DNA from: Bacteroidota bacterium
GTDB lineage: Bacteria; Bacteroidota; Ignavibacteria; Ignavibacteriales; Ignavibacteriaceae
Assembly (NCBI GenBank): GCA_021815405.1
Contig: JAKAGV010000004.1
Location: 124,001 to 188,000 of the forward strand
Direction: 5' to 3'
DNA: 64,000 bases
Below, piece by piece: positions 2,561-54,682 of this stretch. Within the stretch, counting starts at the first letter, position 1, and each line of letters opens with the position of its first letter. Made by a program: the position numbers and the translations under genes. Below the pieces are notes generated by a model. That model worked only from the letters and a program-made list of their open reading frames with translations. It was not told the DNA's origin and did not search any database.

Positions 2561-4036
2561 CTATTCTGATTCCATCTTCTCTATCATTTTTTGAGCATAA
2601 TTATTTTTGGGGTTTTTTGTAAGCGCACGATAATAAGATTGAATTGCTTTCCCTTTATTTCCATCGTGATAATAAGAATCTCCTAAACCTAAGTAAGCCG
2701 AAATGTCATTAGGATATTCACTCGAAAAAAAATCGAACCATCTGATTGCATCATAATTTCGCTTGATGGAAAGAAGATCATATCCAAAACGATTGAATTC
2801 TTCAGGAGAAGTGTCAACCCATTTTGAAGAATCATTTCGGATTAATTTACATTCTGAAATTGCAGAATCGAGATTCTTCTGCAACATAACATTCATCATT
2901 TCGTCTGATAAAGGCTTTAATGGAATAGGATTTCCCTTTTCAAAATATATTGATGCCAAATCTAAGGCAGGACTTCCTAAATTTCTATCATCAGTGTTTA
3001 TTAAGTCAACAACAGCAGTTGAATCTTTAGGATAAATTGCAAGAAGCGAAACGAAGCCGGTACCAAAACCGTAATGTCCAAAATATTTGTTGTCATACGA
3101 ATCTTTTTTTATTTCAAATCCTAATCCGCTTTCTATTACCTGACCATTTGACAAGTGAGTTTGAATAAGCATTGTATCTAAGGTAGAATGCTTTATTAGT
3201 TTACCATTTAACAGTGCATTGGCAAACTTCAAAATATCTTCTGATGTTGAAACTAATCCGCCTCCGGCAAACTTAATGCTTAAATCAGCCATGGGCGCGT
3301 TTTGAATTTGGTGATATTTATTTTTAGCATAGCCATAGGCTTTATTTGGAATAATTTCTCTCTGATATTCTGCATAGGTAGAATTCATTCTGGTTGGTTC
3401 AAAAATATTTTTATTAAGATAATCTATAAACTTCATACCGCTTATATCTTCAATTATAGCTGCTAAAAGATTATATCCCAAGGTTGTGTAGAGATACTTT
3501 GTACCTGGTTTATAAATTAATGGATCATTACTAATTACGCCGACAGCATCTTTAGTTGTGGGATAAAAAGTAGTGCTATTAAATTCACCTGGCTTATAGT
3601 TTCTAAGACCTGCAGTATGCTGGAGTACTTGTCTTACAGTAAATCTATACTTCTTTTTAGGAAAATATGGAATATATTTTAATGCATCAGCATCGAGGTT
3701 TATTTTTCCTTTTTCCCAAAGTTGCATAACGGCAACTGCGGTAATTACTTTTGAAATAGAAGCTATCCGATATATAGTTTGAGGTGCAGCAGGAACATGA
3801 TGACTTAAATCAGCATAACCTTTTGCATTAAGCCAGACTATTTTACCTTTATGAAGAATACCGGCTGATATTGAAGCAACATTTTTATTAACCTGGTATT
3901 CAGTTATATATTGATCAAGTTTTTGAATTTTATTTTGTGATTGGCAAAACAAGATTATCGGGAAGAAGATCGTTAGAACAGTAATAATTAAAAATATTTT
4001 TAACGTTCTTTGTTTGATAAAGTGTCTAAATTTCAT
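2561..4036 (-). CDS. Membrane-anchored serine beta-lactamase-like hydrolase with C-terminal TPR
   Basis: This is a beta-lactamase-related (class C/esterase-type) serine hydrolase. It has an N-terminal hydrophobic anchor, the nucleophile motif SISK (S93–K96 counted from the chosen start), a Y-x-N motif (GYN of TLGYNLL) and an HYGFGTG box standing in for the KTG motif. The last ~70 residues look like TPR helices (YLGLGDSYYHDGNKGKAIQSYYRAL). A longer frame could begin at TTG 4066, but that codon lies inside the clpP terminator hairpin, so ATG 4036 is preferred. Members of this family include peptidases, esterases and lactamases; sequence alone does not say which. The protein is probably exported and tethered to the inner membrane. 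Confidence 0.8.
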   Translation of the reverse strand: MKFRHFIKQRTLKIFLIITVLTIFFPIILFCQSQNKIQKLDQYITEYQVNKNVASISAGILHKGKIVWLNAKGYADLSHHVPAAPQTIYRIASISKVITAVAVMQLWEKGKINLDADALKYIPYFPKKKYRFTVRQVLQHTAGLRNYKPGEFNSTTFYPTTKDAVGVISNDPLIYKPGTKYLYTTLGYNLLAAIIEDISGMKFIDYLNKNIFEPTRMNSTYAEYQREIIPNKAYGYAKNKYHQIQNAPMADLSIKFAGGGLVSTSEDILKFANALLNGKLIKHSTLDTMLIQTHLSNGQVIESGLGFEIKKDSYDNKYFGHYGFGTGFVSLLAIYPKDSTAVVDLINTDDRNLGSPALDLASIYFEKGNPIPLKPLSDEMMNVMLQKNLDSAISECKLIRNDSSKWVDTSPEEFNRFGYDLLSIKRNYDAIRWFDFFSSEYPNDISAYLGLGDSYYHDGNKGKAIQSYYRALTKNPKNNYAQKMIEKMESE

Positions 4037-4083: not shown

Positions 4084-4710
4084 TTATTTCTTTGGTGCTG
4101 TTATTCTTTTTTCAAGGATGTTATCTATAAGCTTATATTCCTTCGCTTCTTCGGCAGAAAGGAAATAATCTCTATCGCAGTCCTTGTAAATTTGCTCAAG
4201 AGGTTTGCCGGTATGATCAGCTAATATTTTATAAAGAATATCTCTTGTCTTTATCATTTCTTTGGCGTGGATTTCAATATCCGTTGTTTGTCCTTGCAAG
4301 CCGCCAACCCAAGGCTGATGAATCATAATTCTTGAGTTCGGCAGGGAAGTGCGTTTTCCTGCAGCGCCTCCCGCAAGAAGAATTGCAGCCATACTGGCAG
4401 CCATACCAACGCAGATTGTGGAGACATCAGGTTTGATGTATTTCATCGTATCATAGATTGCTAAACCTGCCGATACACTTCCACCAGGTGAGTTAATATA
4501 TAAGTTGATATCTTTTTCTGAATCTTCAGCTTCCAGGAAGATCAATTGTGCAATTGTTAAGCTTGCAATATGATCGTCGATAGGTGTGCCGATGAAAATA
4601 ATTCTTTCACGAAGCAGTCTGGAATAAATATCCATGCCCCTTTCACCGCGTCCGGTTTGTTCAATTACATAAGGAACTAACTGGTTATATATTTCCGGGT
4701 AGTTATTCAT
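4084..4710 (-). CDS. clpP: ATP-dependent Clp protease proteolytic subunit
   Basis: This 208-residue ClpP has the full catalytic triad: S106 in GMAASMAA, H131 in MIHQP and D181 in [11 protein letters not shown]. It forms the barrel peptidase that degrades proteins fed by a Clp ATPase in the cytoplasm. The start overlaps the tig stop by four bases (ATGA), so the two are translationally coupled. A terminator follows directly, and no clpX or clpA is next to it, unlike the common tig–clpP–clpX order. Length and residues are ordinary for the family. Confidence 0.97.
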
Positions 4711-6026
4711 TTTGTTTCCTCCGGTTCTTTTTGTAAATATTTTTCTGGTTCTACTTTTTTGATAATGCTCTTTTTTCTTAGGAGATCGAAAAGTTTTTTA
4801 TCCAGCAACTTACTTCCAGCGTTTGAGGATTTATAATAATTCATTAATTTATCTACTGAAATGCCGGTGCTTTCCGCATCTTTCTTTGCAAGTTCATTTA
4901 ATTCTTCATCACTTATTTCAAGATTTTCTTTTTTAATTATCGATTCTTTTATAAACATCCACTTTGCTTCAAATTCAGCATAAACCCGTAATTGCTTTGC
5001 CGCTTCATTTTTGTCAAACTTTTTATAACCACGTTGTTTTTCTGCTTCTTCTTCTTTCTTGACCAATTCTTCAACATACATGTTTACTATTGATGCAGGT
5101 GGATTAAAATCATTGTTCTTCACAATTAAGCTTATTAATCGATTATCAATCATTTCCTCGATTCTTTGATCATAGGTGCTTTGAATATCATTCCTAACGC
5201 CTTCACGAAATTCTTCTACTGAAGTTACTTTATCCTTCGTAACTTTTTTTACGAACTCTTCATTTAACTCAGGTAAGTTAATTTTTTTAATTTCTTTTAT
5301 CAATGTTATAAAATAAAAAGTATCTTCAACCTTTTTCTCTTCTCCTTTATCATCTTTCTCAGTTCTTTCAAATTTATGTGAGTAAGAAAAAGTTTCACCT
5401 ACTTTTTTACCTTTCGCATTTTGTAAAATGGTAGGTTCGATTCCAATAGTCGTCAAATCCAACTGTAAATTTTGCGATTTAACTCCTTCAATCGGTTCCT
5501 CTGATTCATTTACTCTAGTTAATTCAACATCAAGAATATAATTTTTATCATCCCCAACAATCTCAGCAGGTTCATTAGTACTATTTGCTTTCAAGACATA
5601 ATTTATTTCAGATTCAACATCTTCATCTTTTACTTTTAAGTCCGGAATTTCAATTTCCAAACCTGAATAATCCTTTACATCTAATTTAGGCATAACTTCA
5701 TATTTAATTTTGAAATAGAAGTCTTCACCAGGTTTGTACTTAATATCTAGAATTACCGGTGTGCCAATCGGATGTAAATGTTTTTCTTTAGAAATATCAT
5801 TGAAGCGGTTGGCGGCTACCGTTTCAGAAGCTTCATATTCAAGAGAATCGCCGTACATCTTTTTTAATAATTGGATGGGAGCTTTTCCTTTGCGGAAGCC
5901 AGGAAGTTGAATATTCTTAGTTTGTTTCTTTACTTCATTTTCGATATTAGATTTTATCTCGTCATAGGCATAAGTAACTTCAAGTTCTTTTTCAGAGACA
6001 GAAAGATCATTTATTTTATATTCCAA
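4707..6026 (-). CDS. tig: Trigger factor, ribosome-associated chaperone
   Basis: The 439-residue protein carries the trigger factor ribosome-docking segment near residue 45 ([10 protein letters not shown], a version of the GFRxGKxP signature). A central region in the position of the PPIase domain and a charged helical C-terminal chaperone domain follow. It binds nascent chains at the ribosome exit tunnel. It begins 27 bases after the tRNA-Leu gene on the same strand and overlaps clpP at its 3' end, so the three are probably cotranscribed. The middle domain is divergent from E. coli, as is usual in this phylum. Confidence 0.95.
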
Positions 6027-49898: not shown

Positions 49899-50612
49899 AT
49901 GGCTGTCTTAAAAGAAATTAACACGACTATGCTAAAAGGTAAGTTAGGCGATTTTGTTGTTAGAAGTTATAACGGCAATATTATTTTGAGTAAAAGACCT
50001 TCAAAATATAAAATCAACCAGGGGCTTAAAGCGAAGGAGGGAAGAAGTAAATTCGGTATAACGGCTCATCTTTCCAAATCAATTGCATCATTACCAACTC
50101 TTAAAGAGATCTGGAAAACAGTTGAAGGATCCGACAAAACTGTTTTCCATACAATATGTAAATATAACTTTGGTAAATCGTCTGCATCCAAACCTACTTT
50201 GTATAATATAATTACTCCAAACGGTTTTCTTCTGCCGGATATTGATGCTTCGGTTGATACTGAGAAAATAACAGCTTCGTTCTCTGCTTTAAATACTTTG
50301 CATAAATTAAAGTCTGCAGAGGTCGATCTTTCCGTCAATGCTGTGGTTTGTTTTACCGGTCAGGTAAATCGGGAGGATGAGCCTTGCGGGTTTTCAGCAT
50401 GTTCAAAAGAGGTTAAGAATTTCAAGTTTGACCGGGCTTGCGAAGTCGTAATTGAATTTGACCGGAAGCAGAAGTTAATAGCGGCTAAGTACAGCGGTTG
50501 TATTTTGTACCTTTGTGCTGCGACGAAGGATAGCGCCGGAAATGTGGTAAGGTATTCACGTACCTTTTCGAAAGAAATAATAATTACTCAATTTACTCAG
50601 CCTTTGGAATAG
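49899..50612 (+). CDS. Hypothetical protein, possibly DUF6266-like
   Basis: The 237-residue protein starts after GGAG (ATG 49899). The opening MAVLKEINTTMLKGKLGDFVV resembles the start of DUF6266 proteins of Bacteroidota, which is a weak match. The rest looks like beta-rich domains (ALNTLHKLKSAEVDLSVNAVV, shown in part, and CEVVIEFDRKQKLI). There is no signal peptide. Cysteines are frequent (six). It stands alone just before the palindrome cluster. Confidence 0.55.
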   Translation: MAVLKEINTTMLKGKLGDFVVRSYNGNIILSKRPSKYKINQGLKAKEGRSKFGITAHLSKSIASLPTLKEIWKTVEGSDKTVFHTICKYNFGKSSASKPTLYNIITPNGFLLPDIDASVDTEKITASFSALNTLHKLKSAEVDLSVNAVVCFTGQVNREDEPCGFSACSKEVKNFKFDRACEVVIEFDRKQKLIAAKYSGCILYLCAATKDSAGNVVRYSRTFSKEIIITQFTQPLE

Positions 50613-50672
50613 TGGAGCATAGGAATAAATGAAAATTGGAATGATGTAGAAGTTAAGCAAAGTAATAATGTT

Positions 50673-50695
50673 GTCTGACAGTTGTACTGTCAGAC
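50673..50695. repeat. Palindrome 1 (9-bp stem)
   Basis: GTCTGACAG and CTGTCAGAC flank a 5-base loop. It shares the core ACAGT…ACTGT with palindrome 3. Confidence 0.7.
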
Positions 50696-50706
50696 GCAAT
50701 TCTACA

Positions 50707-50721
50707 TGCAGTTGAACTGCA
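50707..50721. repeat. Palindrome 2 (7-bp stem)
   Basis: TGCAGTT and AACTGCA flank one G. Small, but in line with the others. Confidence 0.55.
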
Positions 50722-50772
50722 ATTTTAACATTACTTATATCGTTTACAGAGTGCAACTCTTAGCAGAGTAAT

Positions 50773-50795
50773 GTTCGACAGTGCAGCTGTCGAAC
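50773..50795. repeat. Palindrome 3 (9-bp stem)
   Basis: GTTCGACAG and CTGTCGAAC flank a 5-base loop, the same geometry as palindrome 1. Confidence 0.7.
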
Positions 50796-50805
50796 AACTG
50801 CGAGG

Positions 50806-50822
50806 GCAGTAAGCTTTACTGC
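50806..50822. repeat. Palindrome 4 (7-bp stem)
   Basis: GCAGTAA and TTACTGC flank a 3-base loop. Confidence 0.5.
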
Positions 50823-50853
50823 AACTAAAAAACTTTTACTTCTAAAATAATTT

Positions 50854-50880
50854 GTAGGGCGACTTGTCAAGTCGCCCTAC
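50854..50880. repeat. Palindrome 5, 27 bp, copy 1 of a dispersed element
   Basis: GTAGGGCGACTTG and CAAGTCGCCCTAC flank one T. The inner 23 bases recur at 53559–53581, and both copies are preceded by AAATAATT-like sequence and followed by ACGGGAAA, so the two are copies of one element bracketing the pseudogene. Confidence 0.8.
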
Positions 50881-53292
50881 GGGAAAATTATTTACAGCAA
50901 ATTATATTTCAAGTCAAAGCCATTATAAGAAATTGTTAACGTATCTTTTAGTCATTGACTTTATAGTTCCTATTAATTAAAATCTTTTTAGAAAATTTAA
51001 CGTTAGTTTTAACCGATGGGGACGTAAATTAGTAATTGGAATATAGATAATTCTGAATATTTTTTATCTCATGCTTTTACTGCTACCTTTGGTCCGGAAC
51101 AAAATCAAAATGCATACTTTAATTCATTAAACTATGCAAAGGTTCAAGTCATGATTGATAATACTTTAGTAACAAACCAAGTTAACATGGATTTTCAGGA
51201 TCCATGGTATGTGCAGTCTAATGGGAGCCAGTAGGGAACGAATTACTGGATACCGGTTACATCCTATTATGAGCCAACTGGCAATGCTAACGCTGCGGAT
51301 AAGGGTGCTTTTTTAAACGAAAATCCCGATCCAATTCATCCTGACTATCCATATTATTCAGTACGCGCACCACTAACACAATCAATTGCAGTAAACGGCA
51401 GCAATTTCTCTAGTGTATTTCAAAACTGGACTACATCCAATGCAACACTTCAGCAAGTAGGCAGCAATCCCAGCGGCTACGACCAGAAAGCTGTTGTGTT
51501 TAACCAAGCCAATGCAACTGTAACAGCAAACTACAAAGGCGTCCACCTCTCCAACGATGCCTCCGCCTTCTCGAACAACAGCCAGCGCAAGCTCGTTCGT
51601 ACAAAGGACGGCTGGCTTCACCAGGTGTATACATCTTTGGGGCATGTTTGGCTGTAGGAAAGCACCGACAACGGTACAACATGGTTCCTTGGCAACAACG
51701 GACAGCCGCTTGATAACGGCAGCGGAAAGTGTCCCTCCATTGACTGGCATTACAACACCGGCGAACCGAACAATACCAGCCAATACTCTATTGTTGTTGC
51801 ATTTGAACAGCAATCCGGCAGCACGTATACAATTGAATATGATGTATTCACAAATTCGGGCGGTACTTATGTAAATCAATCCAAGAATCGACCGGGACCA
51901 TTGTATACCGAACCTTCGGGTGGAGATCAGTATGCTACTACCAATGCAAATCCTAACATTGCTTGGGCAGGAAATAATGACCCTAGTCCCTTCGTCTTAA
52001 GCTTCGAAAGGAAAAGCACAGCCGGAGGCATGCAGCCCGGAATTTACTGGATATACGGCTATATGTATGAGAACGGAGTCTCGCCAACTCCCGCTTTACC
52101 TAACGCTCCGGTATTGATCACCGGCTCCTCAGGCAGTTCAATAAACGCGTCTGTATACATGAACAAACAAAGTACAAATAACTCAAGTTTTGATATTGTG
52201 TATCAATCGAATCCTAACCCGGGTAGTAATATTATAGATGCGCAGCTTGCATGCAACTTAAATGGAGGCAGCTGGATTACATCTCAACTGTCTACTACAC
52301 TATCTTCCGGTTCGGGTTATTTAAATAATCAGCCGTCGTTAGTTCAGTTACCCAACAATAACATACAGGTTTGCTGGATACGCGACCTTTACGGCGGCGG
52401 CTCAAACACGCCTTACTACGTTAACGTAGTTTACTGGAGCTCGACCTCGCCGTCTGTTTTTAATTATTACGGTAATATGGTTAACTCGGTATCTCTCAAC
52501 ATACTGGACGGCTTAACAAATACTTATTTTGCCTATGCACAGAATACCAACAATACTACCTGGCAAAACTTTGCAGGCAACGGCTCAAGCACCGTAACGC
52601 TTAATACAACAGGAAGACAAATCCAGCTTTGCAACGGCGCGTCATCGGCTGCTTTATTCGCCTCCTCCTATTATCCCGTAAGCCTGCCTTATTATTTTCA
52701 AACCTCCGGCTCTCTCGGCGGTTTGGCTAAGACAACCAGTCAGCAAGTTACCTATGGGGGCTGTGTTAGATACAGGCAGCATTCAATTTTATTTCTCTGT
52801 GAAGAGTCTGACAGTTGACAATAATAGTATTAAGTTCGTTAGTATACCTGAAACTAAAGATACGGTAATTCAAAAAAGAAGAAAGCTGCATTTAAGCCTT
52901 GACAGCTTAAATACGTTTTTAGCAAGCGAGCCGTTTACTATTCAAAACGGAAGTCAGATCAGCTTTAGCGAAGGGCACAGGCTCTCTGCCGACGCCGGCG
53001 CTGCGGATTCAGCTTTGGTGAAGCAATAAAGCAGAGTAACTTTAACATCACTAATGCAGACTCATCCAATCTAAAGTCGTCAAGCTTAAATATTACATCA
53101 GCCGGTATGAAGACAGTTAGGCTGAAGATTATTCTATCAAGCAGCATAAAAGGCTTGCAGGGAATGCTGGTGAATGAGTACAATACCGTAGATGATAATA
53201 CATTAGCAAAGCTTCCTTCAAATGAATTAACTTTGCAGGGACCTGCGACAATTAAAACATATGCTCTTGAACAGAACTACCCTAACCCCTTC

Positions 53293-53322
53293 TCAGCCGA
53301 AGGCTGATCAGCCCCTGGCTGA
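53293..53322. repeat. Two tandem 15-bp hairpin units inserted in the NPFNP motif
   Basis: TCAGCCGAAGGCTGA is followed directly by TCAGCCCCTGGCTGA: two perfect 6-bp stems with loops GAA and CCT. Removing the 30 bases joins …CCCTTC to AACCCC…, restoring NPFNP in frame. In frame the units read SAEG-stop and SAPG-stop. A third unit, TCAGCCTTCGGCTGA, lies at 63540–63554. Confidence 0.85.
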
Positions 53323-53558
53323 AACCCCACAATAATCATCAATTACCAAATTCTAAAAAACAATTACGTAACACTAAAAGTTTACGACATACTCGGCAAC
53401 GTAGTTAAGACACTTGTAGATGGATATAAAGCTCAAGGCAGTTACTCAATTAATTTTAACGCAGGCAGTCTTGCAAGCGGAGTGTATTTTTACCAATTGA
53501 AAGCAGGAAGCTTTATTGCAACAAAAAAAACTTTTAGTGTTGAAATAATTTTATTTAC

Positions 53559-53581
53559 AGGGCGACTTGTCAAGTCGCCCT
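53559..53581. repeat. Palindrome 5, copy 2
   Basis: This 23-bp copy of the element at 50854 lies at the 3' end of the surface-protein pseudogene. The sorting domain ends in TKKTFSVE and is then extended by the palindrome sequence, so the element seems to have landed on the gene's end. Confidence 0.8.
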
Positions 53582-53601
53582 ACGGGAAAGGTAGCTTTTG
53601 A

Positions 53602-53920
53602 AACCTGATAAGAAAGCTTAAATTAAAGTTTGTTCTCCCGGTCGCTTCGATACGATTCGGCTAAAGCCTCATCACTCAGCGACCGGGAGAGTATCGAAAT
53701 GCCCGGCAATATTCAGCATCCGTGAAAATACCGAAGCGACCGGAATAATTTATTTTATTATGATTCGCATATAATAAAAACTTTACTTAATTTTGTCTTA
53801 TACAAAATCATTTAGAAATTAACTGAAAGAAATTGAGCAGAAAATCTTCCTGCCTTGAACTTCGCCTTACAATAGAAAAGCATCGTCAGACATTGTTTTT
53901 AAAATCAAATAGGAAAAGAC
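53602..53920. other. Gap between pseudogene and pyrK with interleaved inverted repeats
   Basis: Around 320 bases. It holds the cruciform-like element at 53635–53698 (separate entry), AT-rich spacer and, at 53911, the TAGGAAAAG ribosome site of pyrK. No ORF is supported. Confidence 0.5.
53635..53698. repeat. Interleaved inverted repeat element
   Basis: CTCCCGGTCGCT (53635) pairs with AGCGACCGGGAG (53678). Inside is a small GGCT/AGCC stem, and TTCGATAC (53646) is the reverse complement of GTATCGAA (53691). Elements with this GGTCGCTTCGATAC-type core recur in many environmental genomes, in my recollection. Confidence 0.65.
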
Positions 53921-54682
53921 TTGTTCATCGTTAACGCACCCGTTGAAAAGATAATAGAATTAGATAACCAAATATATTTAATTAAGCTTTATAGTCCGGA
54001 AATTGCTCACTCTGTAAAACCGGGACAATTTGTCAACGTTAGGGTTTCAGAAACAATTTATCCTTTACTCCGCCGCCCCTTTAGTGTATGCGATGTTGAA
54101 GGCGATTTCTTTTATTTAATGTTCAACATATACGGCGAAGGAACAAAAATTTTGGCGAACAAAAATTTTGGCGATACGTTGGATGTTCTGGGTCCGCTGG
54201 GAAATGGATTTAACTATGAAGATGATTTTGAAACTGCCATAATTGCTGCCGGTGGATTAGGCGCCGCACCTTTTCCTTTTTTAATCAGAAGTCTTGGTAA
54301 CAAAAAAAATATCTTTACATTTATTGGCGGCAAAACTTACAGAGACGTTATTACTCACGGTATGATGAATATTTCGATGGCGACAGATGACGGCTCCCTC
54401 GGCTTTCACGGTAATGTTGTTCAACTGCTTCAGGGAAACATGGAACTGCTTAAATCAAGCAAGATAAAAATATTTTCCTGCGGTCCGAATGCTATGCTTA
54501 GAAATTTAAAAGAGTTTTGCATCAAGAATAATTTCGAATGTGAGGCTTCAACAGAATGTGCGATGGCTTGCGGATTTGGAATATGCCAGGGCTGCCCGAT
54601 TGAATCGACAAAAAATCCTGAAAAATATCTTTTGGTTTGTAAAGATGGTCCGGTGTTTAATGTACGGGACGTGGTAATATGA
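53921..54682 (+). CDS. pyrK: Dihydroorotate dehydrogenase B electron-transfer subunit
   Basis: This 253-residue FAD/[2Fe-2S] protein has the FAD-binding RRPFSVCDVE motif, the NAD-binding IIAAGGLGAAPFPFL segment, and the C-terminal cluster ligands in ECAMACGFGICQGCP plus a further C in LLVCKDGP. It passes electrons from PyrD to NAD+. Translation starts at TTG 53921 behind TAGGAAAAG. Its stop overlaps the pyrD start by four bases. Confidence 0.94.
   Translation: MFIVNAPVEKIIELDNQIYLIKLYSPEIAHSVKPGQFVNVRVSETIYPLLRRPFSVCDVEGDFFYLMFNIYGEGTKILANKNFGDTLDVLGPLGNGFNYEDDFETAIIAAGGLGAAPFPFLIRSLGNKKNIFTFIGGKTYRDVITHGMMNISMATDDGSLGFHGNVVQLLQGNMELLKSSKIKIFSCGPNAMLRNLKEFCIKNNFECEASTECAMACGFGICQGCPIESTKNPEKYLLVCKDGPVFNVRDVVI

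Follow-up and report, generated by a model that had tools for sequence, protein, structure and literature searches.

The palindromes analysed here most closely resemble the GTAG-tagged REPs. In the parts of the survey by Di Nocera, De Gregorio and Rocco (2013; PMC3733652) that we draw on, most REPs adjoin gene 3' ends, at less than 20 bp in the two families plotted, their GTAG termini often provide the TAG stop codon, and GTAG repeats are listed for Proteobacteria, Cyanobacteria, Chloroflexi and the PVC group, with Bacteroidetes not among the taxa listed there. Our literature search yielded no paper joining type IX secretion, C-terminal domain, palindrome and pseudogene. The palindrome pair described here lies in a window of 64,000 nucleotides, the whole stretch of DNA that was analysed, and shares with GTAG REPs a short stem-loop whose loop is tiny, one GTAG foot in most copies from its class of Bacteroidota, and a placement at gene 3' ends, once supplying the TAG stop. 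It also occurs in Chloroflexota, as the GTAG REP super-family does in Chloroflexi according to the same parts of PMC3733652. Unlike GTAG REPs, which reach high or moderate copy numbers, it has three copies in this genome, and whereas the REP tag is unpaired as published in the parts considered, the GTAG foot is paired (with CTAC) in copy 1 and unpaired in copy 2. Because foot and 3'-end traits fit a GTAG REP while copy number and RAYT association do not, we call the palindrome REP-like: its placement is that of a GTAG REP and its mode of action probably is too, but two defining features are lacking.

Copy 1 (50854-50880, no strand assigned) is 27 bp long, has a GTAG...CTAC foot and reads GTAGGGCGACTTGTCAAGTCGCCCTAC; copy 2 (53559-53581, likewise without strand) is a 23-bp core that reads AGGGCGACTTGTCAAGTCGCCCT. 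GTAG stands at the end of the stem-loop in both, in copy 2 visibly only in minus-strand reading. Both have the same right flank, ACGGGAAA, which reaches approximately 50886 behind copy 1 and 53589 behind copy 2. The two sites share 31 identical bases, a 44-nt direct repeat at 89% identity spans both copies (50843-50886 and 53546-53589), and on the left the similarity extends further (50827-50853 and 53525-53551, 85%). The first-pass annotation, which had described the same palindrome with similar flanks on both sides of a broken T9SS protein, was thus borne out. It had also raised direct target repeats outside the palindromes, and here the outcome was negative: over 360 border choices, no repeat longer than 4 nt abutted the outer flanks. 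An earlier repeat comparison was sensitive only to repeats of 14 nt or more, and short target repeats were therefore checked directly on the abutting flanks; with repeats of at most 4 nt, no target-site duplication is seen at the pair. An Rfam search of 50400-54000 (E ≤1) gave no match.

Each copy stands behind the end of a T9SS gene. The sequence left of copy 1 is a 45-bp plus-strand stub (50806-50850), the remnant of an earlier T9SS sorting domain (CTD) of which the 15 terminal codons survive, counting the stop. Its translation closes with TATKKLLLLK before a TAA, and 3 nt separate this stop from copy 1. The stretch 50806-50886 matches 53503-53589 over 87 columns at 83%, and the last 40 nt of the stub agree at 37 of 40 positions with a CTD tail elsewhere in the genome (C23:508198-508237) and at 34 of 41 with the CTD at site 2. 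Judged by sequence, copy 1 is the hairpin behind the stub of a putatively lost gene, rather than one in front of the pseudogene. Further right lies the conserved leader of a gene array (50926-51023, plus strand), which is common to contig C349 of the sister genome G007 and 77% identical to a leader on contig C193 of that genome; at approximately 51023 it joins mid-gene T9SS sequence. The T9SS surface-protein pseudogene that begins there (51024-53548, plus strand) has lost its 5' part, its frames differ, and it keeps a CTD at its 3' end. Its open pieces are 51901-52818, 52754-53029 and 53107-53307, the first two overlapping in different frames. A Pfam scan of four plus-strand open pieces between the palindrome copies returned no family; the TIGR04183 sorting domain was recognised at C14:177323-177529 (window 53323-53529) with 37.9 bits against a cut-off of 23. 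Copy 2 begins 10 nt past the stop of the CTD frame, and both window copies thus lie within 20 bp of a gene 3' end. Since both palindromes are tails of T9SS genes, the bracketing of the pseudogene follows.

The palindrome is rare in its own genome. Allowing up to three mismatches, we found it at three places in 4,974,758 bases (31 contigs), with no match for the reversed-pattern control; the only exact copies are the two in the window. The third place, C2:97059 (two mismatches), lies 15 nt past the stop of an ORF of 199 aa that has a T9SS tail; this T9SS gene is on one side of it and a convergent ORF of 483 aa on the other. All three own palindromes therefore stand beside T9SS gene ends. That all three do so is suggestive given the 149 sorting-domain matches in the genome (E ≤0.01), though two of these places form one local pair. 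A wider foot pattern recovered copy 1 alone, compared with three forward control matches. A scan of the window and further stretches for perfect hairpins (stem of at least 11, loop of at most 6, at least four G/C in the stem) gave 23 in 951 kb of own sequence, both palindromes included. A dispersed high-copy repeat in the own genome was ruled out by the count of three places. The first-pass idea of a pair of dispersed elements holds in part: the GTAG-REP look, the placement and the recurrence in other genomes speak for it, but three own places are not a dispersed family. The same annotation reasoned that presence in very many intergenic gaps would make the bracketing coincidental. The palindrome is not that abundant, but the bracketing is already explained by the T9SS gene tails.

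Similar palindromes recur in other genomes. Among 59 genomes, the own one included, places with at most three mismatches were found in the own genome, G001, G002 (two), G007, G017 and G031, a thin margin, with six genomes (own and G007 included) against two with a control match. The core GCGACTTGNCAAGTCGC occurred among 391 sampled genomes of the class in the own genome (two copies) and in G396 (two copies), the reversed control in one genome; the exact core was absent from the other 389, G007 being outside that sample. An exact search for GGGCGACTTGNCAAGTCGCCC in a contig collection, which possibly excludes the genome of the window and was scanned without a scrambled control, gave 15 stretches, 13 from Chloroflexota (11 assemblies) and two from Bacteroidetes, one of them presumably that of G007. 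Placement was assessed at the eight places of the class that lie in neither the window nor G007 (own C2, G001, G002 twice, G017, G031 and G396 twice), with open frames of about 100 aa or more called mechanically. The stop of an ORF reading towards the palindrome lies within 20 nt at six of the eight, and at five of the six assessable places once own C2 is set aside; at G017 the flanking frame crosses 1491 masked bases and the distance cannot be judged, and in G031 the nearest such stop is approximately 107 nt away. GTAG stands at one foot in five of the eight, and own C2, G031 and G017 have ATAG instead. At one of the two G396 copies, a frame of approximately 350 aa takes its stop codon from the palindrome, namely the TAG within the GTAG foot. 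In other genomes of this class, the genes that the hairpin follows are unrelated; we take the genes beside it elsewhere, from their translations, to include nuoI-like and aspS-like ones. In Chloroflexota, GTAG occurs in 5 of 13 places, and GTAG or GCAG by loose match in 10 of 13 (one not adjacent), while the palindrome lies within 20 nt of a stop in just three of 13.

Genes of the RAYT type are present in the own genome, with five Y1_Tnp matches (one with internal stop codons), and none of the hairpins listed near them equals the palindrome. A same-genome RAYT as mobiliser was ruled out on these differing hairpins. The genome shares with REPtrons and TIRtrons (PMC3733652, in the parts considered) the possession of Y1_Tnp genes, two of them surrounded by hairpins or 122-bp TIR elements; it differs in that no hairpin at these loci is that of the palindrome pair. 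One Y1_Tnp gene (L044:3767-4111) has three like hairpins around it (L044:3412-3430, 3576-3594 and 4409-4427; two read CCATGCATGAAATGCATGG and one is a near copy), a REPtron-like arrangement. Another, the RAYT-type gene at L042:3080-3403, lies between 122-bp elements in the same orientation (L042:2737-2858 and 4733-4854); this arrangement, on contig C14 just right of the window, is a possible REPtron or TIRtron.

Two independent insertions of one small mobile palindrome, a RAYT-type REP that by chance landed behind two T9SS ends, would suit the GTAG foot and the 3'-end placement typical of GTAG REPs, the five Y1_Tnp matches and the same hairpin behind unrelated genes elsewhere. With only three places in 4.97 Mb, however, it is improbable that two of them arose by chance landings at a distance of 2.7 kb and came to share 31 identical bases as well as similar left flanks. 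Site 2 in G007 is moreover not a clean empty site, and the hairpins listed at the Y1_Tnp loci are different ones. We consider such a double insertion unlikely, though worth keeping in view.

The gap that holds the pair has variable content. It lies between a nucleotidyltransferase gene, which we take from its translation to be 'manC', and pyrK; the gene name 'pyrD' is likewise taken from a translation. Pfam supports RpiB (LacAB_rpiB) and PyrK (DHODB_Fe-S_bind). Matches to the left gene and pyrK lie 29 to 253 bp apart in 6 of the 12 other same-genus genomes (G001, G005, G006, G008, G009 and G011). In G004 an RpiB-like gene occupies the gap together with further cargo, among it a T9SS gene, and in G007 the gap is split over contigs, two of which reach into it. 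The stretches taken from G003, G010 and G012 did not yield the left gene, and G002 had no close PyrK match. The differing content across same-genus genomes marks this gap as a place of variable cargo.

G007 preserves both edges of the gap in a different state. Its contig C349 keeps the upstream flank through palindrome 1 to approximately 51023 (89% over 1316 columns) and then differs, with a 459-aa frame followed by a frame of at least 304 aa that runs off the contig; both frames look lipoprotein-like by eye. Contig C371 carries the right flank of the window (85% over 3383 columns), and its site 2 consists of a one-frame CTD end and then shorter sequence without such a palindrome, followed by the right flank. 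The homologue of the pseudogene body is on C193, with 94% DNA identity over 1546 columns and one in-frame TAG, and the hairpin behind it is a different, terminator-like one, with no such palindrome; as G007 is fragmented, C193 may or may not sit between C349 and C371. Close identity of the pseudogene to this homologue begins only at 51489. Because the leader joins mid-gene T9SS sequence at approximately 51023 and close identity starts at 51489, deletion and recombination with a paralogue are both likely to have shaped the 5' region of the pseudogene. On the G007 contigs C349 (L031) and C193 (L030), T9SS genes also have lipoprotein-like neighbours, which resemble one another in their starts (SQFSC[KN]SPTAP) and in their leaders.

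These comparisons bear on the proposal of the first-pass annotation that the palindromes border a mobile or recombining cassette of a surface gene. Near-identical palindromes do flank one gene, and the 'manC'-pyrK gap does hold variable cargo. Against this, copy 1 of G007 has other genes to its right, its site 2 lacks the palindrome and its homologue is on another contig, so the segment between the palindromes does not behave as a unit in this relative, contrary to what a cassette would predict. The absence of outer target repeats longer than 4 nt, the lack of any Pfam family in the four scanned plus-strand pieces, and the third copy between a T9SS gene and a convergent 483-aa ORF also count against it, and cassette borders seem to us very improbable. 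The candidate cassette or site-specific inversion was accordingly discarded on the G007 comparison and the missing outer repeats. What had been a candidate surface-antigen cassette is replaced by a plainer history of T9SS gene ends with REP-like hairpins, a stub and a pseudogene.

Folded as RNA in 60-nt context, copy 1 reaches -24.1 kcal/mol and copy 2 -18.6 kcal/mol. A terminator scan scored copy 1 as terminator-like on both strands and copy 2 not (five regional matches against 3.2, sd 1.9, in shuffled sequence). As a GC-rich hairpin past a stop codon the palindrome resembles an intrinsic terminator; it differs in lacking a clear T run and in having a sequence common to different phyla. Plain intrinsic terminators of T9SS genes, alike by chance and without REP ancestry, would be compatible with the terminator-like copy 1 and with the many own T9SS genes (of the 30 top scoring) that are followed by other terminator-type hairpins. 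Copy 2, however, has no proper T run behind it, and terminators that evolved separately would hardly be expected to have in common the 20 specified bases that reappear in Chloroflexota and, with a GTAG foot, past other genes; we give this explanation little credence. As other T9SS tails bear different hairpins, the hairpin position appears to be general and the sequence not. Hairpins below -10 kcal/mol within a 60-nt fold were not enriched at T9SS tails (1 of 9 against 90 of 338 other genes), only nine T9SS tails having passed the mechanical filter. The hairpin is likely to act in termination or in protection of the mRNA 3' end.

Taken together, the pair is most plausibly explained as low-copy REP-like 3'-end hairpins of two adjacent T9SS genes, shared through duplication or gene conversion, and we hold this with some confidence. 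Two T9SS surface-protein genes would once have stood in tandem between 'manC' and pyrK, each ending in a hairpin a few nucleotides past the stop that would have formed the final stretch of the transcript and most probably served as a terminator-like or 3'-end-protecting structure. The first gene would then have been lost save for its last 15 codons, a dispersed multi-hairpin element now lying at the junction, and the second would be the present pseudogene. Local duplication or gene conversion most probably carried the identical 31 bp from one gene end to its neighbour. As the stub agrees better with a CTD elsewhere (37 of 40) than with site 2 (34 of 41), we infer that conversion of the hairpin segment is favoured over duplication of the whole gene end. 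A bolder version, in which the palindrome is a rare 'portable gene end', near-identical in Bacteroidota and Chloroflexota, set precisely at stops, kept at two to three places per genome and copied by conversion, strikes us as rather doubtful. If the 3'-end placement holds across genomes, the hairpins would represent a GTAG-type palindrome kept at very low copy number, useful for asking how REPs start prior to amplification.

The element at the stub junction belongs to a separate dispersed family. It is approximately 165 bp long, has terminal inverted repeats and four related hairpins, and lies at 50651-50803 (plus strand) with its 3' terminus truncated against the CTD stub. In the own genome we found 14 matches, some of them partial, at 13 distinct places (e.g. 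L056, L057, L059, L063, L065, L066 and L067); G007 has six and the 11 other same-genus genomes none. Its consensus ends are CTGAAGTTACGCA and TGCGTAACTTCAG. Allowing up to three mismatches, the element end occurs 104 + 93 times in the own genome (control 20 + 25) and 21 + 15 times in G007 (control 13 + 15). A 122-bp MITE bounded by the terminal repeats of this element, with two REP-like inner hairpins, has at least 40 matches at 93% identity or more in the own genome, G000 (40 of 205 candidates were scored); an example outside the window is L166:642-763, and the window contains no exact or near match to the MITE end. Among the matches listed, 15 copies are 100% identical over the match, and target duplications of 7-8 bp were present in all ten high-identity copies checked. 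Near-full-length matches in the other 12 same-genus genomes reach at most 88% identity (G003), and a 77-bp inner part is matched at 94% in G012. This palindrome-bearing MITE is best taken as the product of a recent burst in the own genome.

Two further palindromic features were observed near the pair. A palindromic insert of approximately 30 bp (53293-53322, no strand assigned) lies within the CTD coding sequence, between the NPF and NP codons, and is absent from two homologous CTDs of G007 (C193 and C371). It is a small AGCCGAAGGCT-type insert; another of this type, in a G007 leader (L031, reverse strand, around position 1300), is absent from the window. In 864 kb of sampled sequence, GCCGAAGGC was observed 11 times against 1.0 expected by base composition. 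Finally, a strong long-loop hairpin, CTCCCGGTCGCT...AGCGACCGGGAG, is located at 53636-53757 between the pseudogene and pyrK, and related sequence is present in G007.
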